A stretch of 42,833 nt of DNA from Eubacteriales Family XIII. Incertae Sedis bacterium (GTDB lineage Bacteria; Bacillota; Clostridia; Peptostreptococcales; Anaerovoracaceae). The position numbers and the translations under genes are program-made. Each line of letters opens with the position of its first letter. Within the stretch, counting starts at the first letter, position 1. The stretch lies in contig JAISMX010000005.1 of assembly GCA_031276515.1 (NCBI GenBank), positions 1 through 42,833 on the forward strand, read 5' to 3'. Positions 9,012 through 18,552 of this stretch are shown here, one piece after another. A model generated the notes under the pieces. It made no database searches. It saw only the letters and a program-made list of their open reading frames with translations, and was not told the DNA's origin.

Positions 9012-11507
9012 TCAGTGGATGGGCTCGTCGCCCGGCGTTTCCGCCGCGCCGCCGTTCTCCCCGGGCGCGGGCGCGCCTTGCTCGCCCACGCCTTGGTTCT
9101 GCCCGGCGTCGCTCGGATTTTGTTCGCCCGCGCCCGCGTTCGGCCCGGTCTCGCCGCCCTCGGGCGGCAGCGGAGCGGGCTGCGATTCCTTCAGCGCGCG
9201 GAGCATGTAGGCCACCTTGGCCGCCTGCGCGCGCGTCGCGCCCGCCAAGGGTTCAAAACCGCCCTCCGGCATACCGTTCATGATGCCCGCGCGCGCGATC
9301 TTGTCCACCGATTCAAAGGCCCACGGGCTGATCGCGCCGGCGTCCGTGAACGCGGGAACGACGCCGTTGTCCGGCAAACTCAAGCCCATGATCGACGCGA
9401 AATTCGCCAGCATGACGGTCATCTGCTCGCGCGTGATCGGGAGGTCGGGCGCGAAACGCGTCTCGTCCACGCCCTTGACGACCCTCGCGGCGTGGCCCCA
9501 GTTCACATAGGCGTAATACCAGCTTTCCATCGGCACGTCCTCGAAGCCCGACGGCGGAGACGCGTTCAGATCGAGTCCGTCGGCGGTCTTGGCGAGCATG
9601 GCCAGGAACTGCGCGCGCGTGAGCGCGAACTCCGGCCCGAACATATCGTCGCCGACGCCGTTCACGATTCCCCGGCTCGCGAGCGATTCGACATAGGGTT
9701 TTGCCCAGTGATCCGCGCCCGTCGCGGAATCGAACAAGTCCGTGAAGCTGATCTTCGCGCCGACCTGCACCGGCACGGCGACGGAATCGCCGGCGTAGGA
9801 AATCCTGATTTCCCCGGCTACACCCGTCTTGTCGGTCGCCGTAAATACGCCGTTTTCGTCTATAGCGCCCACGTTCGCGTCGCATTCCCACGAAAACAGG
9901 CTGTCCTTCTGCGCGACGGGAGCGTAGCCGTAGCGCGCCGTCACGTTCAAGTCCACAACCCCGCGCGGATCGGCGAACACGGCGTTAAGGCTCGGCGTCA
10001 GAGAGAGATCCCGCGACACGATTTCGAGCTCCGCCGTCGTCTCCGCGCCGCCGCTTTGGACGCGAATCCGCACCTTGCCCGGCGCGTCGCCGGCCGTATA
10101 GACGCCGTCTCCGCCGACCGCGCCGCCGCCTTCAAGCACCTCAAAGCGCAAATCCCGGACGGCGCCGCCCGTCCGCTCGTACAGGCTGTTGCTCATGTAG
10201 CCGGTCAACTTCACGTCCGCGCCGGGCATGGCCAGATAATGATCCTGATAGGCGCTCAAGACGGATTCGCCCTGCGCCGACAGCCCCTTGTAGACGAAGA
10301 ACAGGCCGTTCGCCACGGCGCGCGGCGCGCCGCCCGACGGCGAATTCTTCAGCGTCGCCTTCGCGTCCATACCCGGTTCGCGCACGAGCATGGACGAAGA
10401 ACCGCCGCCGTCGAGGTTCGCGACCACGACGCAGCCGAGCTCGACCATGTGCTTCGCCGCGTCCGTGAGACCCAAGCCGTTTGAGATGCCCGGCTGTCTG
10501 CCGTCCAGCACGTAGAGCACGACCGAGCCGTCGTTCTTCACGCCCAGCAGGGTGCGCGGATTCGGGTTTTTGCCCTCCGAGACCCATTTGCCATGGTCGT
10601 AGAGCAGATAGTACATCCCGAGGCATTCCTTGCTCCTCGACAGCGGACCCTTTTCGAGGTCGGTGGCGTTGATCTCCACGCGCATGCCCACGGCCATGCG
10701 CCCCAGGGATTCGGCGGTCATGGAATCCGCCTTCGTGGACAGCACGAGCTGGTTGTCGCCTATGGGCGTGTTGCCGCCGGAGTAGCGTATCGCGGACACG
10801 GTCGCGACGATGGGTCTGCCGAAGCGCAGCCGGGCCGCGTCCTGCGACTCGGCGTTCAGCACGACCTCGAAGTTGTCGCCCTTCGTACCCGTGCTCGCTC
10901 CATAATCCCTGTTGTACAGGTGCAGCGCCTTCGCGGCGCCGTGAGGCACGTTCACATAGCCTATGTTCGCGGCGTAGGGCGTCTGCGCGTGGCTGCCGTC
11001 GGCCTGCGGAACGAAGATCTCCGTCGCCATGGCATAGTTGACGTTGGGCCACACGAGATCGGCCTTGCCCGCCTCGTCAAACGAGATGGCGAACTTGGGC
11101 TCATAGCCCGAGGTGAGGATCACGCCGTCGTGTATGGTGATTCCCTGCGGACAGCCCGTGCCGGTGTCGAAGATGTCGCCGTTTACGCCCGCGACCACCC
11201 TATAGCCTTGCGCTTCCAGCGTATTCACCATCGTGTCGGGCAGATAGCGCGCGTTTATGTCACCCGAAAAAACGAGAGGCCGCAGAGCCGAACGGGAGAA
11301 ATCCGCCGTGACGACGTAGGCGCGCTCCACGCCGTTCAGGTCGTTTCCCGCGTGTATTTTCGAGAAATCGACGCCTTCAAATATCTGTAAATGCGAACTG
11401 TAATACACGTTGCCGATGCCGTTTGTGCGCGCGTAGCCCGGCAAAAAAACGCCGGCCAGCAGGACAAAGGCGAGAAGCAGCGCCCATTTCTTTCCGTTTT
11501 GAAACAT
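9012..11507 (-). CDS. SLH-anchored phosphodiester glycosidase-family surface protein
   Basis: An 831-residue secreted protein. A signal peptide occupies residues 1-26 (Lys-Lys, then a hydrophobic run ending PGYA). A phosphodiester glycosidase domain (NAGPA/DUF2233 type) spans roughly 60-410: AGVNGDIFD, PRTLLGVKNDGSVVLYVLDG and NLDGGGSSSMLVR are its characteristic segments. Two Ig-like stretches follow. Three SLH domains lie near 595-772 (VNGVGDDMFGPEFALTRAQF, VKGVDETRFAPDLPITREQM, NGMPEGGFEPLAGATRAQAA), which bind secondary cell-wall polysaccharide. The last 57 residues are a Pro/Gly/Ala/Glu-rich low-complexity tail. Family members cleave phosphodiester-linked sugars, for example on wall polymers; the substrate here is unknown. 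It has its own promoter at 11551-11580, and AGGTG precedes the ATG. Confidence 0.92.
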   Translation of the reverse strand: MFQNGKKWALLLAFVLLAGVFLPGYARTNGIGNVYYSSHLQIFEGVDFSKIHAGNDLNGVERAYVVTADFSRSALRPLVFSGDINARYLPDTMVNTLEAQGYRVVAGVNGDIFDTGTGCPQGITIHDGVILTSGYEPKFAISFDEAGKADLVWPNVNYAMATEIFVPQADGSHAQTPYAANIGYVNVPHGAAKALHLYNRDYGASTGTKGDNFEVVLNAESQDAARLRFGRPIVATVSAIRYSGGNTPIGDNQLVLSTKADSMTAESLGRMAVGMRVEINATDLEKGPLSRSKECLGMYYLLYDHGKWVSEGKNPNPRTLLGVKNDGSVVLYVLDGRQPGISNGLGLTDAAKHMVELGCVVVANLDGGGSSSMLVREPGMDAKATLKNSPSGGAPRAVANGLFFVYKGLSAQGESVLSAYQDHYLAMPGADVKLTGYMSNSLYERTGGAVRDLRFEVLEGGGAVGGDGVYTAGDAPGKVRIRVQSGGAETTAELEIVSRDLSLTPSLNAVFADPRGVVDLNVTARYGYAPVAQKDSLFSWECDANVGAIDENGVFTATDKTGVAGEIRISYAGDSVAVPVQVGAKISFTDLFDSATGADHWAKPYVESLASRGIVNGVGDDMFGPEFALTRAQFLAMLAKTADGLDLNASPPSGFEDVPMESWYYAYVNWGHAARVVKGVDETRFAPDLPITREQMTVMLANFASIMGLSLPDNGVVPAFTDAGAISPWAFESVDKIARAGIMNGMPEGGFEPLAGATRAQAAKVAYMLRALKESQPAPLPPEGGETGPNAGAGEQNPSDAGQNQGVGEQGAPAPGENGGAAETPGDEPIH

Positions 11508-11550
11508 CTGTTTGGCACCTCGCGCGTGGGACGAAAAACAAAGTCATTTA

Positions 11551-11580
11551 ATTGTACCGGAGGATTCAGGGAGAAAGCAA
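11551..11580 (-). promoter_or_regulatory. candidate SigA promoter for the SLH glycosidase gene
   Basis: Read on the minus strand: -35 TTGCTT, 18 bases, -10 TACAAT, about 45 bases before the ATG at 11507. The -35 is imperfect. It stands downstream of the terminator of the preceding operon, so a new promoter is expected here. Confidence 0.55.
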
Positions 11581-11591
11581 GTTACGGTTGT

Positions 11592-11634
11592 ATGTCAAAA
11601 CGACGCCATGTCACCCGCCATGTCAAAACGACGC
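11592..11634. repeat. 15-base direct repeat just upstream of the SLH-gene promoter
   Basis: ATGTCAAAACGACGC occurs exactly twice, at 11592-11606 and 11620-11634 (28 bases start to start), with a third partial ATGTCA at 11608. The pair lies immediately upstream of the candidate -35 at 11575-11580, between the terminator and the promoter. This is a position for an activator or repressor site, but no regulator is identified. Confidence 0.6.
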
Positions 11635-11642
11635 GGCCGCGC

Positions 11643-11681
11643 AAAAAATATCCGGCAAGACTTCAAATCGTCTCGCCGGAT
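11643..11681 (-). terminator. rho-independent terminator of the Dlt-like operon
   Basis: On the minus strand, a 12-base stem with one mismatch (ATCCGGCGAGAC paired with GTCTTGCCGGAT, 8-base loop) is followed by a run of six T. It begins about 30 bases after the stop of the lipoprotein gene, the last gene of the operon. Confidence 0.85.
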
Positions 11682-11712
11682 ACGGTTTTTCGGCATATGG
11701 AAGGCGTGTCGT

Positions 11713-12327
11713 TCATTGCGCCGCCTCAGCCCGTTTCCGCGCCGGGGCGTAGTACATCGTGACATCCGTCGCGACGCCGTCTTCAAACAGAACCCGCAGC
11801 TCCAAATCCCCGTTTTGAAACAGCAGCGCATTCCCGCTTTCGTTCCACGCGCCGTTTTCGTACACGGCGGTCACCTCGTCGGCGTTCATGCCCAGGTACA
11901 GCCCCTCCTCCGTCTGCACGCTGTCGTCGCGAAAGGAAATCGACAGGATTTTGTCCTCGCCTTGCTCGGGGTAGGTGTTGACGAGAAAGCCCGGATAATA
12001 GTATATGCGGTCGATTCCGTCAAACGCGCAGCTGGGCGCCTCAAAGACGTCGTTCGGCTCTCCGATTGCGGCGAGCAGCGCGCCCATGTCTTCCCCCGGC
12101 ACGATGGGCGCGTCCTTGTGGCGAAAAGCGAAAACCGCGGCGTTTTGAACGGAATCGCTCAAATCCGCCTCCGTCTCGTTCGCAACGGCGCTTCCGCCCG
12201 CGCTCGCGCCCGCGCTCTCGTTCGCCTCCGGCTTCGCGCAGCCGCTTGACGGGACGCACAGCGCGAGCGAAGCCGCAAGGACGATCAACATGCGTGCGGT
12301 GCGATTTTGCTTACCGCTTGACTTCAT
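11713..12327 (-). CDS. putative lipoprotein, unknown function
   Basis: A 204-residue protein that I do not recognise. The N-terminus looks like a lipoprotein signal: basic start, hydrophobic LIVLAASLALC, then SSGC with the modified Cys probably at residue 30 (the -3 position is Ser, so the lipobox is weak). A Ser/Ala/Glu-rich linker follows. The rest is mostly beta and acidic, with repeated segments YLGMNADEVTAVYENGAW and NGDLELRVLFEDG that resemble small SmpA/BamE- or DUF-type beta folds, without clear assignment. ATG at 12327 has GGAGG 5 bases upstream. It is the last gene before the terminator, 49 bases after the SGNH-like gene, so it probably serves the same envelope system. Confidence 0.75.
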   Translation of the reverse strand: MKSSGKQNRTARMLIVLAASLALCVPSSGCAKPEANESAGASAGGSAVANETEADLSDSVQNAAVFAFRHKDAPIVPGEDMGALLAAIGEPNDVFEAPSCAFDGIDRIYYYPGFLVNTYPEQGEDKILSISFRDDSVQTEEGLYLGMNADEVTAVYENGAWNESGNALLFQNGDLELRVLFEDGVATDVTMYYAPARKRAEAAQ

Positions 12328-12376
12328 CCTTGCCTCCATTTTCAACCTCATTTCGACACCTCTTTCTTCGATTTCT

Positions 12377-13429
12377 TTAATACGTAAACGTCCTGATCTC
12401 GCCGTATTCGTCGAGCTCGCGCAGCTGCGCTTCGGCCATTCTCTCGTAGTCTCGCGTCTTCTCGCGCCAAATCGCGGCGACGGCCGCGTCCGTGCGCCTG
12501 TCCTCGAGGCCGTAGTCCTCCGCGAGAAGCTTTCCGAGAAAATCCGTCAGCTTTTCGGCGCCGCGCCTGTTCAGATGCAGACCCCCGTCATAGGTGTCCG
12601 TGTCAAAGTCGATGCCGGCCTCCTCCGCGCGCTCGAGGAAATTGACAAAGCGCAGCCTGTGTTCGTCCGCGTAGTCCCGAATCTGTTCGTCCCACTGCGG
12701 ATACCAATGCGGATAAATCGTGGGCGCCTTCACAAGCAAGAGGTCGATTCCCTTGCTTTCGCACAGCGCCGTGATTTTATCCAGATATTTGTAGCTGTTT
12801 TCGCCGAATCGGTAATCCGCGAGCTTCGGGCCCTCGGGCACGATATTCGCGGGTTTTACGTCGTTTCGCATATAATAGCCGCTGTGGCTCACGGATTCGC
12901 TCGCCGCGAAGTACTTCAGATCCTCGGAAGTGAGCGCGTTCCAGCGATCATGGTATCTGAATATGGGGAATATGTACGAAAGCACCGTCTCCTCCGGCGT
13001 CATCGACGCGAGAATCGCGCCGAGCTTGGCGCGCGAAAGGCGCATGCCGTCGAGGTTCAAACGGTTGTACGCCTCGCTTTGCGGGGCGTCGTACTTCATG
13101 GCCAGCACGTTGAAAACCACGACGTCGGGCGTTTCGTAACGCAAGGCGTCCAGCAGAAGGTAATAGGACTGCCATATCAGCTGCTGGGGGCCGCCGCGTA
13201 TATAGGAGGTTATGCCGTACGCCTTCCAAAGCTCCGCCGGCGAGAAGTTTTCATACACCTCGCAATCCCCTATGAACAATACGTCGTTGTCCTTTTCGTC
13301 GTCGTAGTATTCCGCCGTCAGCGCGCCCTCGTGCAGCGATTCCATGTACTTGGGCGCGAGCAGGCGCTGCGCCGACAGGAAGCAGATGACAAAGGCGATT
13401 GTCGCGACACATATACACAGGCGCTTCAT
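12377..13429 (-). CDS. SGNH/DltD-like membrane-anchored protein with Cys at the nucleophile position
   Basis: A 350-residue protein with one N-terminal membrane anchor (residues 4-22) and an extracytoplasmic domain. Block I of the SGNH fold is recognisable as VLFIGDCEVYENFSP, where the usual catalytic Ser of GDS is Cys56 (codon TGC). The C-terminal block is DGGLHLNRRGAEKLTDF with Asp281 and His285. In such operons the SGNH/DltD-type protein works outside the membrane with the MBOAT protein to transfer an acyl group to a polymer. ATG at 13429 has GAGG 7 bases upstream. It starts 34 bases after the MBOAT stop. Whether Cys56 is catalytic or the site is inactive cannot be told from sequence. Confidence 0.8.
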   Translation of the reverse strand: MKRLCICVATIAFVICFLSAQRLLAPKYMESLHEGALTAEYYDDEKDNDVLFIGDCEVYENFSPAELWKAYGITSYIRGGPQQLIWQSYYLLLDALRYETPDVVVFNVLAMKYDAPQSEAYNRLNLDGMRLSRAKLGAILASMTPEETVLSYIFPIFRYHDRWNALTSEDLKYFAASESVSHSGYYMRNDVKPANIVPEGPKLADYRFGENSYKYLDKITALCESKGIDLLLVKAPTIYPHWYPQWDEQIRDYADEHRLRFVNFLERAEEAGIDFDTDTYDGGLHLNRRGAEKLTDFLGKLLAEDYGLEDRRTDAAVAAIWREKTRDYERMAEAQLRELDEYGEIRTFTY

Positions 13430-13463
13430 TCTGCGGCCTCCCACGCTTGGAATCCTTTCCGCT

Positions 13464-15041
13464 TCAAAACCGATTGTAAATAAATTGCTTCGCGTCATAA
13501 CCGATGCCGTAGCATCCGAACACGGTCGTCGCGAGGAACAAAAGGAAGCACAGGCAGACGCGCGCCGTGAGCGACGTTCCCTTGTACGCGGCGCGGCGCG
13601 TCCACAGCCCGGCCGATATCATGACGCACACGCCCAAAGCGACGACGACGCAATCCGAGACGGACAAGCCCAAATCCAAAACGCTCCGCGCCGCGAACCC
13701 CTCCCGGCCAAAGTCCGCAAAGACAGACGCGTAGGCGCCGAGGGTCACGCCGACGCCGGCGTAGATGTCAAAGACGCGGATGAAGGACATGAGACAAAAC
13801 GTGCGCACGATTTGAAAGGCGCCGTACACTGGGGTTTCGGAAAAGGCAAAGCGGGCGTGAAATCGCTTGTACAGCGGGGACAATTCCTGCGAAACGATGA
13901 TGATCGCGCCGTTCGTGAGCCCCCATACGATGAAATTCCAGCTCGCCCCATGCCAAAGCCCGGTGGTGAACCAAAGCACCGTCGTCACGATGTACACGGG
14001 GATGCGAACGCCGACCCCCTTTCCGAAGATTCTTTTGGACGGCTTGATCAGCTTCAACATCGCGCTCGAAGCGCTGAGGGGATAGAACAGATAGTCTTTG
14101 AACCAAGCGCCCATGGTGATGTGCCATCTTCGCCAATATTCGGCGATGGATTTTGAATAGAAGGGCCTGTTGAAATTCTCCGTCACGTCGATTCCGAACA
14201 GCTTGGCGACGCCGACGGCGATGTCGATCCCGCCCGTAAAGTCCGCGAACAGCACGACGGCGTAAAACCACATGGTCAGCAGGACATAGGCGCCCTTGAA
14301 TTCGTCCGGGGATTTTGTCAAAATCACGACGGCCGGCAAAAGCCTGTCCGCGACCACGAGTTTTTTGAAAAAGCCGAACAGAATCCGCTGCACGCCCGCG
14401 CAGAATTCATCGCGACAAGGGATTCGCCCGGCGAACAAACCGGGGCTCAAATCGCAATACCGGCTTATGGGACCCTGCACGAGCTCGGGGAAAAACGAGA
14501 CGAAGAGCGCAACTTGAACAAGGCTCCCGGCCGCTTCCGTTTTCTTGCCGCGATAAAGGTCCGTCATGTAGGACAGGGCCTTGAACGTGTAGAACGATAT
14601 GCCCAAGGTCAGGGCGAAATCAAAACCCGAGGCCGTGAAAGACAAGCCCAGAACGCGCGCCATCGCGTTCAGGTTTTGCGCGAAAAATCCGGAATACTTC
14701 GTCACCGCGAGGATGCCGACGTTGACGCAGACGCCGAGGAGCAGCCACAGACGCTTTTGCTCCTTCGTCCTCCGGCGCAGCGCCTTGGCCTCGGACGATA
14801 CGAGATCCGCGTCCGCCAATCGCGCCGCCAGGCTTTTTGACAAACGATCCATCCGCTTGCCCGCGTACCACGTCGTCAGGCAGGTCGCGGCGACGCAAGC
14901 CGTGCCGGCCCAGCCGGAAGCAACGCAAAAAAAGCTGTTTGCGAAGAGCAGCCATACCGGGCGAAAACGGCCGGGCGAGACATAATATCCCGTCAAAACA
15001 ACGACGAGGAACAGCACAAACGCGGACGAGGTGAAATACAT
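13464..15041 (-). CDS. MBOAT family O-acyltransferase (DltB/AlgI-like)
   Basis: A 525-residue polytopic membrane protein of the MBOAT superfamily with about 11 hydrophobic segments. Family marks are FFPELVQGPISRY near residue 185, EYWRRWHITMGAWFKDYLFY with His307, and FTTGLWHGASWNFIVWG with the invariant catalytic His364. DltB and AlgI carry an acyl group across or within the membrane to an acceptor outside. It follows the carrier-protein gene by 8 bases, which strongly suggests that the carrier delivers its acyl group to this protein, as DltC does to DltB. Length and topology agree with AlgI/DltB relatives; AlgI-like sequences more often carry acetyl, so substrate class must come from the ligase gene. 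Confidence 0.92.
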   Translation of the reverse strand: MYFTSSAFVLFLVVVLTGYYVSPGRFRPVWLLFANSFFCVASGWAGTACVAATCLTTWYAGKRMDRLSKSLAARLADADLVSSEAKALRRRTKEQKRLWLLLGVCVNVGILAVTKYSGFFAQNLNAMARVLGLSFTASGFDFALTLGISFYTFKALSYMTDLYRGKKTEAAGSLVQVALFVSFFPELVQGPISRYCDLSPGLFAGRIPCRDEFCAGVQRILFGFFKKLVVADRLLPAVVILTKSPDEFKGAYVLLTMWFYAVVLFADFTGGIDIAVGVAKLFGIDVTENFNRPFYSKSIAEYWRRWHITMGAWFKDYLFYPLSASSAMLKLIKPSKRIFGKGVGVRIPVYIVTTVLWFTTGLWHGASWNFIVWGLTNGAIIIVSQELSPLYKRFHARFAFSETPVYGAFQIVRTFCLMSFIRVFDIYAGVGVTLGAYASVFADFGREGFAARSVLDLGLSVSDCVVVALGVCVMISAGLWTRRAAYKGTSLTARVCLCFLLFLATTVFGCYGIGYDAKQFIYNRF

Positions 15042-15049
15042 GTTGCGTC

Positions 15050-15277
15050 CTATTCGTCAAGCAGCGAAACGATCAGCTCGTGCAAGCTCTCCGCGGAATT
15101 GAAATTCTCGGGTATGATTTCCTCCGGAGGAATCGTTACGCCGAAATGCTCGGATATGAGCGCTATGATGGAGATGATGTCGAACGAATCCAGCACCTCG
15201 TCGTCAACCAGATTTTTCTGCGTCGCAAAGTCGATGTCGGGGCGCTGTTCGCGCAAGACGGCGATAAGCTCATCCAT
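15050..15277 (-). CDS. acyl/peptidyl carrier protein (DltC-like)
   Basis: A 75-residue carrier protein. The phosphopantetheine attachment site is Ser31 in VLDSFDIISII; the DSF form with FDI is closer to DltC/peptidyl carriers than to the DSL of fatty-acid ACP. The acidic helical fold and length match the family. GGAGGAGG lies 9 to 16 bases upstream of the ATG at 15277. It sits between the adenylating enzyme and the MBOAT transferase, so it is the expected carrier between them. No phosphopantetheinyl transferase is seen in the window. Confidence 0.93.
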   Translation of the reverse strand: MDELIAVLREQRPDIDFATQKNLVDDEVLDSFDIISIIALISEHFGVTIPPEEIIPENFNSAESLHELIVSLLDE

Positions 15278-15358
15278 GGCGCTTGTCCTCCTCCTTGGGA
15301 TTTTTCCATAGTGGCGCGCCGCCGGCGCATCCGCGCAAGCTCCCGGCGGGACGCAAAA

Positions 15359-16870
15359 TCAAACGGGGCGCTCGGCGACCAATCCGCGAACCGCCGCCCT
15401 GTCGAGCTTTCCGTTGTTCGTGCGGGGCAAGACGGCAATCCGCAGGTATATCGCGGGCTCCATGTAGCGGGGCAGCAGTTTTCGCATCCCGGACGCGACC
15501 GTTTTCTCGGAGACGCTTCCCGCGTAACAGAGCGCGATGCGATCCCGCTCCTCCAAAAACACGCAGCAGGCCTCCTCGACGGCGTCGAGTTTCGCCGCCG
15601 CCGCTTCTATTTCCGCAAGCTCAATGCGATAGCCCATGTGCTTGATCTGGTTGTCCCTGCGGCCGATGTACACAAGCTCTCCGCGTTCGTCGTACTTCGC
15701 GATGTCGCCCGTCCGGTATACGATTTCGGGATAATTCGCGTGCGCCGGGTTTTGAACGAAGGCCTCGCGCGTCTTTTCAAAGCCGTTGAAATAGCCCAAG
15801 GTCACGCCCGCGCCGCGTATGTAAAGCTCCCCCGGTCTCTCGGCTTCGTTTACGAGAACGCCGTCGTCGATCAAGAACACCTCGCTGTTTTGGAAGGCTT
15901 TTCCGATTGGAATCGGCATGTCCGCGTCGAAATCGTCCGGCACCTCGTAATAGCAGGACATGCCCGTACACTCGGTGGGGCCGTAAAGATTTATCCAGCG
16001 GGCCTTTGGCAAGGCCTTGCGCCAAAGGGCGAACTGCTTGGACGGAAACACCTCGCTTCCAAAGGCGATGGTGTGCAGCCTCGGAACGGCTTTTTCCAGC
16101 GTACCCGTCCCCGATATGAGCGTGAGGGCGGAAACGACCCAGCATACGGTGTTCACGCCGTGCCGATTCAGAAATTCGACCAATCTTATCGGCGTCATGA
16201 ACAGCTTTTTGGGGATGAAAACGGTTTTCGCGCCGTATTTCAGGCCGCAGCATATCTCCTTCAAGCAGGCGTCCACATAGAGCGGAACCTGCATGCCGAA
16301 AACGCTGCGCGCGTCGGGGCGAAGCACCGCCCCCAGGGCTTCCGCATAGTCGATTACGTTCCTGTGGCAGGCGACGACGCCCTTGGGAAGGCCCGTGGAG
16401 CCGGAGGTGAACACGACGTACACGGGATCGACGTCCAAAGCGCGGGCGCTCACGCGCGAAAGCCCTTCTTCGTCCGTTTTCGACGCCATGAGCTCTCCGA
16501 TCGAAAGAACGCGCCCGGCGTAATCGAGTTCCTTGGCAAGGGCCTCCGTTTTTTCGTCGCATATCATGAAGGCGGGCGCCGCTCCGTCCAGAATGGCGCT
16601 TATCCTGCTTTGCGACATCTCTTTTTCCAGAGGAATGTAATAATTGCCGCTGTAAACGACGCCGAAAAAGGCGGCTATCATAGAAGGGCCTCTCTCCATG
16701 AAAACGGCTATGGCCCCGTTTCGCCCGCATTGCAGAAGCCCGCTTCCCACCGCGCGCGCCCGCGCGCGGAGCGCGCCGAAGGTCAGGCTTTCGGTCTCGT
16801 CCGAGAAGGCCGCGCAATCGCGGTACGTTTCGGAAATATCTTCTAAATATTCCAATATATTTCGACGCAT
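15359..16870 (-). CDS. AMP-forming adenylation enzyme (DltA-like amino-acid--carrier ligase)
   Basis: A 503-residue stand-alone adenylation enzyme. Core motifs: A3 FTSGSTGLPKG, A5 INLYGPTEC, A7 VYRTGDIAKYDERGELVY, A8 GRRDNQIKHMGYRIELAEIE and A10 PRTNNGKLDR with the catalytic Lys. The A4 region PLYVDACLKE keeps the Asp that binds the alpha-amino group of amino-acid substrates in NRPS/DltA enzymes. Where DltA has FCGEVLP (the Cys is linked to D-Ala selection in B. cereus DltA), this protein has FGSEVFP, so D-Ala cannot be assumed. ATG at 16870 has GGAGG 5 bases upstream; the carrier gene follows 81 bases downstream. Role: activates an acid with ATP and loads it on the carrier. Confidence 0.88.
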   Translation of the reverse strand: MRRNILEYLEDISETYRDCAAFSDETESLTFGALRARARAVGSGLLQCGRNGAIAVFMERGPSMIAAFFGVVYSGNYYIPLEKEMSQSRISAILDGAAPAFMICDEKTEALAKELDYAGRVLSIGELMASKTDEEGLSRVSARALDVDPVYVVFTSGSTGLPKGVVACHRNVIDYAEALGAVLRPDARSVFGMQVPLYVDACLKEICCGLKYGAKTVFIPKKLFMTPIRLVEFLNRHGVNTVCWVVSALTLISGTGTLEKAVPRLHTIAFGSEVFPSKQFALWRKALPKARWINLYGPTECTGMSCYYEVPDDFDADMPIPIGKAFQNSEVFLIDDGVLVNEAERPGELYIRGAGVTLGYFNGFEKTREAFVQNPAHANYPEIVYRTGDIAKYDERGELVYIGRRDNQIKHMGYRIELAEIEAAAAKLDAVEEACCVFLEERDRIALCYAGSVSEKTVASGMRKLLPRYMEPAIYLRIAVLPRTNNGKLDRAAVRGLVAERPV

Positions 16871-16896
16871 TTCCGCCTCCGCGCTTTCGCCGCGCG

Positions 16897-18552
16897 TCAC
16901 TCTTCCACGACGGCCGGGTATTGTTCGGCATCGTAGTCATAGTAGCGCCGACCGATTCGCTGCGTGTATTCTCTTGCCGTTTTTTCCGTAAACATGAATT
17001 TGTTCAGGTTCGATATCGGTGCGGGACAGGCGTCAAAATGCCGCCAGCCGTCGCCCGCGTTGACCAGGCTCCAGTAATGCGCGGTGGGCGTCCCCGCAAC
17101 CCGCCTGACGCCGACGTTGTCGATGCCGGCTCGCGTGAGCAGAACCTCTCCGGCGGCGTAATAGGTGTAGCAGTCGCCGCGTTTGAGCACGAAGGCGTCC
17201 AAAGCGCCCTGCAAAATCCCTTTCTTGCTCCCGGTGTTTATGTACGATACGTTCGCGGACAGCCAATCGTAGATCGCCTTTGCCTTTTCGTATTGACTCA
17301 TGCCGCCGTTGGTAATTTCGCCCAATATCTCGTCGGCCTTGCCGTATACGCTCGCTTCGTCCGCGATCAAAACGGAAACATACGCGGAAACGGTTCTTTC
17401 GTTCCCGCTCGCGTCCACGGCGCGATAATATACGGGATATCTGCCGGGCGCGCCGGTATTCACCGCCGACGAATCGATTTCCAGTCTGACGCTATCGTCA
17501 AAATCGTCCGAAACGCGCACACCCGCGCGATAGCCAATCGAACCGTTCAGGAACACGGAGCGATTTTTCACGCCGGAAATCGTCGGTCTTCCCGTATCCC
17601 GCACCACGGTGAGCGCGGCGACCGCCACGCTTTCGTTGCCGAAAGCGTCCGTGAGCTTGATTTCGACGTCCTGCTTTCCCGTTTTCCCGAAAATCGGAGG
17701 ATTGACAAACTCAACGGAAACCTCCGACATATCTCGAACCTCCGCAACGAAATCCTCCGCCGTCAAGCTGTCAAGCGTGCAAACGGTTCGGTCGCGAACG
17801 GTCGCGGAAGGAGGGCTCGTGTCCGTTACCGCCAGCTTGCAGTCCGCGATGCGGTCTTCGATGTTGATCGGCAGGCTGTAAATCGCGCCCGCGGAGGAAA
17901 TATCCAGGGTTTCCGGCGCAAGCGCGAACTTCGCGGAAATGTTTTCGGGTTTTACAAAGAACAGATCGAGCGCGATGTCGGGCGGCTGATCGGAGGCTTC
18001 CACGCTCGCCTCGGTTCTGCCCGGAAGAATTGTCAGTTTCGCGCCGCAGCGCGTCTTGTTCCCCCTTGTGTCTTCGACGACGAACGCCACCTCTCGCTCG
18101 CCCGGAACGGAACTGTCCGGCGGCGCGTCCGCGTAATAGGCGAAGACCGTCGGCATCTCCCCCTCCGCGTCGGAAAGGGCGGCGCTTATCGATGCGGGCG
18201 TCGCGTTCGCATCGGAATCGGCGGCGGGAGAAAATATCGCGAGGGCTTTTTTATCGTAATACTCCGCGTTTCGCGAGCTGTTTCGCAGGAACTTGGGTAC
18301 CTTTCCATCCCTGATTTCGGCAAAAAAAAGGTCGGGCGAGAGCTCTTCGCCCTGTATCGCGTACACATCCTTGGTGACGGCGACGGGAGCGGAAAAATCC
18401 ATGACGCCCGCCGCGAAAAGAGTCAAGGCGAGCGCCGTCAATATCAAGGACGCAATCGAAACGGCAAACGCCTTCGCGTGCTTGCGCGCCGATGACGCAA
18501 ACAAAGCCGCAAACGCGTTCGCGCGTTTCCTTATCGCAGGCATCAATGGCAT
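16897..18552 (-). CDS. transglutaminase-like extracellular protein with Ig-like repeats
   Basis: A 551-residue protein with a basic N-terminus and one membrane segment (about 29-49), then a long extracytoplasmic part. Residues about 55-400 contain repeated DUF5011/HYR-like beta domains, seen in VAFVVEDTRGNKTRCG, VEIKLTDAFGNESVAVAAL and VYYRAVDASGNERTVSA. The C-terminal domain is transglutaminase-like: KRGDCYTYYAAGEVLL (Cys461), AHYWSLVN (His492) and WRHFDACP (Asp507) form the Cys-His-Asp triad. Such domains act as cysteine proteases, amidases or cross-linkers; the substrate is unknown. First gene of the Dlt-like operon, 26 bases before the ligase, with a promoter at 18586-18615. The Shine-Dalgarno (AAGGGG) is unusually far from the ATG. 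Confidence 0.87.
   Translation of the reverse strand: MPLMPAIRKRANAFAALFASSARKHAKAFAVSIASLILTALALTLFAAGVMDFSAPVAVTKDVYAIQGEELSPDLFFAEIRDGKVPKFLRNSSRNAEYYDKKALAIFSPAADSDANATPASISAALSDAEGEMPTVFAYYADAPPDSSVPGEREVAFVVEDTRGNKTRCGAKLTILPGRTEASVEASDQPPDIALDLFFVKPENISAKFALAPETLDISSAGAIYSLPINIEDRIADCKLAVTDTSPPSATVRDRTVCTLDSLTAEDFVAEVRDMSEVSVEFVNPPIFGKTGKQDVEIKLTDAFGNESVAVAALTVVRDTGRPTISGVKNRSVFLNGSIGYRAGVRVSDDFDDSVRLEIDSSAVNTGAPGRYPVYYRAVDASGNERTVSAYVSVLIADEASVYGKADEILGEITNGGMSQYEKAKAIYDWLSANVSYINTGSKKGILQGALDAFVLKRGDCYTYYAAGEVLLTRAGIDNVGVRRVAGTPTAHYWSLVNAGDGWRHFDACPAPISNLNKFMFTEKTAREYTQRIGRRYYDYDAEQYPAVVEE

Follow-up and report, generated by a model that had tools for sequence, protein, structure and literature searches.

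The window analysed here, 42,833 nucleotides from an Eubacteriales Family XIII Incertae Sedis bacterium (contig JAISMX010000005.1), contains a row of six genes that recalls the dlt operon for D-alanylation of teichoic acids, with a transglutaminase-like gene at its head and a lipoprotein gene at its end. The question is whether these genes encode a variant of the Dlt pathway or another system, and which group they would transfer.

Gene content and boundaries of the locus

Six intact open reading frames lie head to tail on the minus strand, encoding in this order a transglutaminase-like protein (TG, 18552-16897 in the list of open reading frames), a ligase (LIG, 16900-15359), a carrier protein (ACP, 15277-15050), a membrane-bound acyltransferase (MBOAT, 15041-13464), an SGNH protein (13498-12377) and a lipoprotein (LIPO, 12351-11713). 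Because of the relatives and the ribosome-binding sites, the probable true start of the ligase is placed at ATG 16870 (15359..16870) instead of GTG 16900, and that of the SGNH protein at ATG 13429 (12377..13429). A Pfam scan of the six reading frames gave Transglut_core, AMP-binding, PP-binding (PF00550, in the carrier protein) and MBOAT (PF03062) domains, all past their cut-offs, and no match for the lipoprotein.

A promoter-like site on the same strand (TTTACA-18-TATAAT, 18615-18586) agrees with the consensus at 11 of 12 positions and has the dinucleotide TG before its second hexamer; a terminator-like hairpin with a 14-bp stem and a T run is found at 11683-11648, also on the minus strand. 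As promoter and terminator matches occur at chance level across the region, these two derive their weight from their position and strength. Together with the intact reading frames they bear out the preliminary description of a six-gene Dlt-like operon between one promoter and one terminator. The upstream neighbour is a gene which we take, from its sequence, to encode polynucleotide phosphorylase, and the downstream neighbour (9012-11507 of the window) encodes a protein that combines SLH with phosphodiester glycosidase (NAGPA) domains. The cassette of locus L101, too, has a NAGPA-like gene in its vicinity.

Conservation and distribution of the cassette

A contig scan with one query sequence yielded two named loci with the full gene set, from a Clostridiales Family XIII MAG (L035) and from Herbinix (L036; 51% for the ligase, 56% for the SGNH protein and 44% for the MBOAT). 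A search with an alignment of three SGNH proteins against 391 Clostridia genomes gave 49 strong matches (below 1e-120), the window's own included, with a clear gap to the next group; among 398 genomes from across the phylum there were three strong matches, all in the same class. The neighbourhoods of the 48 other SGNH loci were read, 42 of which have at least 6.5 kb of upstream sequence. In these 42 SGNH-selected loci, a TG gene is present within 6.5 kb in 41 and a LIPO gene in 36, in addition to SGNH-LIPO fusions in L099, L100 and L103; over the same distance an MBOAT gene is found in 35, a carrier gene in 32, a ligase gene in 30 and a racemase gene in 23. The commonest order is TG-(racemase)-ligase-carrier-MBOAT-SGNH-lipoprotein. 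No match to the TG or LIPO profiles was found in 16 control loci (canonical dlt, other ligases or MBOATs, a racemase) and six outgroup loci. Clustering of the flanking genes for further conserved members revealed sharing in small sets of loci only. Directly downstream of the SGNH-LIPO fusion in L100, a gene (10556-12496) encodes L,D-transpeptidase and S11 carboxypeptidase domains in a single protein; similar genes occur near L099 and L103, the domains having been checked in L100 alone.

Several loci are reduced. No ligase gene is present between racemase and carrier genes in L072 and L078. L104, L106 and L112 retain the SGNH, LIPO and TG genes without ligase and carrier, and seven loci of one genus (L107-L111, L113 and L114) retain these three genes without ligase, carrier and MBOAT. 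In the genomes of the latter seven, an MBOAT encoded elsewhere ends in FIYA[RT]I; in L109, which is annotated, the genes for the Cys-type SGNH protein, lipoprotein and transglutaminase lie beside those for GT2 and GT87 glycosyltransferases. The donor-less variants that carry an MBOAT all come from one family. Because of these variants, the extracellular trio may have a broader role. A literature search that reached few subscription journals found no description of the cassette, which is a conserved Clostridia gene set and an apparently undescribed variant of envelope aminoacylation.

The ligase and its probable substrate

In a maximum-likelihood tree, 38 cassette ligases form one group (support 100/100) that is separate from DltA (100/100), and the ligase of the window scores below the cut-offs of both TIGR01734 and PRK04813. 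Its pocket reads D-A-K-C-I-F-L-G-M-K and is nearly invariant among the 38 ligases (D-A-K-C-I/V-F-L-G-M-K), the exceptions being Lys to Arg together with Met to Ile in two ligases and Phe to Ala in one. The pocket of control DltA proteins is mostly D-L-M-V/I-F-F-T-V-A/C-K, which is unlike that of the cassette at seven of ten positions and argues against D-alanine as the transferred group. The preliminary description had noted a non-canonical parallel to Dlt in which a transglutaminase and a lipoprotein are additions, and this holds: relatives (the Family XIII MAG, Herbinix and dozens of other Clostridia) share the six-gene association with its extra genes conserved, and by tree, pocket and a score far below the DltA equivalog cut-off, the ligase lies outside canonical DltA.

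The pocket positions are read here according to established knowledge of adenylation domains, with comparison to the specificity codes for Asp and Glu. The Asp that anchors the alpha-amino group (position 235, GrsA numbering) is present in 38 of 38 cassette ligases, suggesting that an amino acid is activated, and the closest relatives of known structure are adenylation domains for amino acids. Position 239 is Lys in 36 and Arg in 2 of the 38, and such a cationic residue would favour an acidic side chain; Lys at this position is found in non-cassette ligases as well.

Of the 48 loci, 26 include a gene for a member of the aspartate racemase family. The encoded racemases score past the TIGR00035 cut-off where tested and have both catalytic cysteines. 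Most carry the motif PC[IV]T, compared with PCNT in aspartate racemase, and several also reach the NCBIfam cut-off for cysteate racemase, so the exact substrate may differ. The operon of the window has no racemase gene; a racemase with 36% identity is encoded elsewhere in the genome. In L102 an asparagine synthase gene (10081-11922) lies in the cassette operon between the SGNH and racemase genes, which hints at Asp/Asn chemistry. Taken together, pocket, racemase and asparagine synthase, none of them decisive alone, indicate that the substrate is probably an acidic D-amino acid, with D-Asp favoured.

Carrier protein and MBOAT with a fused acyl-shuttle motif

The carrier protein has its phosphopantetheine attachment site at Ser31 (codon 15185-15187), which is a serine in 45 of 45 sequences. 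The MBOAT (525 residues, with full-length cassette MBOATs of about 516-530) has catalytic His364 within a conserved His motif and ends in the hexapeptide FIYNRF (13467..13484, minus strand; Tyr522). Other cassette MBOATs end in FIYNQF, FIYNRF or similar. Its best NCBIfam match is DltB (TIGR04091), at 153.5 bits against a cut-off of 375.

The terminal hexapeptide matches the acyl-shuttle motif FXYXXF of the acyl-Tyr relay that is established for Dlt and PatAB; in the non-Dlt MBOAT-SGNH pathways the MBOAT itself bears the motif as a fusion, and an acyl-CoA donor is used without a carrier (PMC12148441). As the cassette has both a carrier and an MBOAT-fused motif, it joins the donor side of Dlt to a fused shuttle of the PatA type. 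The window's own genome encodes two more MBOATs with such ends (FIYFRF in L124, FLYFRF in L125), with no match to the cassette SGNH family nearby.

SGNH protein, lipoprotein and transglutaminase-like protein

The SGNH protein gave only a sub-threshold Pfam match, to Lipase_GDSL_2. Its nucleophile position is Cys79 (numbering of the open reading frame; codon 13262-13264), and the catalytic His is His308. Every complete cassette SGNH protein has a Cys for the catalytic Ser (GDC[ED]) and retains the His, and all except that of L075 retain the Asp; outgroup SGNH proteins have a Ser nucleophile. The literature search, within its reach of few subscription journals, found no description of Cys-type SGNH enzymes. 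The structural model is poor (mean pLDDT 54), and although designed scaffolds head the list of its fold matches, many others are SGNH enzymes, e.g. TesA and, lower down, PatB, giving the predicted fold weak support. This Cys nucleophile, the MBOAT-fused shuttle motif and the racemase of many relatives are absent from the preliminary description.

The lipoprotein has its lipobox cysteine at C38 and an ectodomain cysteine, C108, that is invariant (51 of 51). Its model is confident at residues 71-212 and has weak fold matches only, to YjgB (DUF4309), YfeY and a BLIP-like protein. Since the two proteins are fused in L099, L100 and L103, the SGNH protein and the lipoprotein are likely to act together. 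The TG protein is membrane-anchored, with Ig-like repeats and a transglutaminase-like domain (PF01841, 34.2 bits, cut-off 23). Its Cys-His-Asp triad, consisting of C461 (17170-17172), H492 (17077-17079) and D507 (17032-17034), all on the minus strand, is invariant in 76 of 76 relatives.

Canonical dlt genes in cassette genomes

Canonical DltA was found in at least 17 of the 391 genomes of the class (up to three candidates scored per genome), and the cassette SGNH protein, in 49 of 391, is thus commoner in the sampled Clostridia. A search of 40 cassette genomes gave no DltA-level match, the best reaching at most 221 bits versus at least 265 for canonical DltA; this best match was often none other than the cassette ligase, or it lay within a long NRPS-like frame. 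As the genome of the window is 77% complete, absence of DltA there is weak evidence. Mutual exclusion of cassette and dlt is not claimed: the overlap is zero, but chance alone would give only about two genomes, and the comparison is confounded by lineage.

Proposed function and alternative explanations

The gene set is conserved, its catalytic residues are in place, and its ligase, MBOAT and SGNH protein depart from canonical Dlt. We propose, as the reading that we consider reasonably probable, that the cassette is an extracytoplasmic aminoacyl relay resembling Dlt and PatAB and distinct from Dlt, which probably handles an acidic D-amino acid, with D-Asp favoured, and includes a cysteine thioester step. 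By analogy with its family, the ligase would adenylate an amino acid, probably an acidic D-amino acid and by preference D-aspartate, and load it onto Ser31 of the carrier. Precedent from Dlt and PatA and the terminal motif suggest that the MBOAT would then transfer this aminoacyl group through the membrane onto its own Tyr522. Cys79 of the SGNH protein, where known relatives use Ser, could accept the group as a thioester with assistance of the lipoprotein and hand it over to an acceptor on the surface, for which a wall or secondary glycopolymer is the likeliest candidate. More speculatively, the transglutaminase-like protein might prepare the acceptor, or process or cross-link the product. In a bolder version, which we think rather unlikely, the universal Ser-to-Cys change makes the SGNH protein a thioester aminoacyltransferase that forms amides instead of esters and, together with the transglutaminase and the Cys-containing lipoprotein, builds or cross-links isopeptides with D-Asp (or D-Asn) on the surface; this would be a novel wall chemistry replacing D-alanylation of teichoic acids.

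The four biochemical roles are identical to those of a dlt operon, DltB is the closest NCBIfam family of the MBOAT, and since canonical DltA was not seen in the 40 cassette genomes searched the cassette could replace dlt. Even so, we consider it improbable that it is a diverged dlt operon which still D-alanylates teichoic acids and has transglutaminase and lipoprotein as mere accessories, because the ligase falls outside the DltA clade with most of its pocket changed, the racemase is of the aspartate and not the alanine type, and a Cys-type SGNH protein is combined with a fused shuttle. The reduced loci bring in a different possibility, namely a protein- or glycan-modifying system centred on transglutaminase, Cys-type SGNH protein and lipoprotein, for which ligase, carrier and MBOAT are just one among several interchangeable donor modules. 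Such a system would account for the three loci without ligase and carrier, for the glycosyltransferases found instead in the seven loci of one genus (annotated in L109), and for the several TG copies in the donor-less loci; however, the donor genes stay in the operon at most loci, the donor-less variants with an MBOAT are one family and the glycosyltransferase type is one genus, and we regard it as unlikely.

Transfer of another acid, such as a hydroxy or fatty acid, is conceivable in that the AMP ligase superfamily activates many acids and in the related ligases of L118 and L123 the amino-anchoring Asp is missing. The constancy of this Asp in the cassette ligases, their relationship to amino acid adenylation domains and the amino acid racemase of many cassettes make it very improbable. 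Chance adjacency of genes that do not act jointly is ruled out for practical purposes, as the set recurs over many families while the flanking genes change, and SGNH and LIPO are fused in some loci.

If the proposed relay is correct, many of the sampled Clostridia would use a combination of two known relays to modify their surface with an amino acid that is not D-alanine, and this would have consequences for surface charge, for recognition by the host and for resistance to antimicrobial peptides. The natural Cys-type SGNH protein also offers a test case for the role of the nucleophile in the SGNH class.

Comparison with known systems

The controls included eight canonical dlt loci of the same family and order. 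Their genes run A-B-C-D; the DltB has 382-404 residues, a small DltX-like reading frame of its own ends in FxYxxF, and the DltD has GSSE. None of the eight contains a TG or a lipoprotein gene. The cassette shares with the Dlt pathway (DltX-A-B-C-D) the ligase, carrier, MBOAT, SGNH protein and acyl-Tyr shuttle motif, but differs in ligase clade and pocket, gene order, a shuttle fused to the MBOAT without DltX, Cys for Ser in the SGNH protein, the additional TG and lipoprotein and, often, an aspartate-type racemase.

The AlmE/AlmF/AlmG system for glycylation of lipid A in Vibrio likewise uses a stand-alone adenylating ligase and a carrier, but its final transferase is of another kind and its acceptor is lipid A of a Gram-negative bacterium. 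Also related to the cassette are the loci L119, L120 and L123, with a ligase, a carrier, an MBOAT with a C-terminal Tyr shuttle motif and an SGNH protein of the same wider family, which differ in a Ser-type SGNH protein, other pocket residues and the lack of TG and lipoprotein. In L120 (4694-9903) a ligase with the pocket DSKDIFIVDK and a GNAT acetyltransferase accompany carrier, shuttle-type MBOAT and Ser-type SGNH protein; this locus may represent a version for glutamate or for an N-acetyl amino acid. Finally, PatA/PatB and the MBOAT-SGNH pairs for O-acetylation of alginate and cellulose resemble the cassette in the fused C-terminal FxYxxF and the SGNH partner, but they use an acyl-CoA donor without a carrier (PMC12148441), and their SGNH nucleophile is a Ser, where the cassette has a carrier and a Cys.
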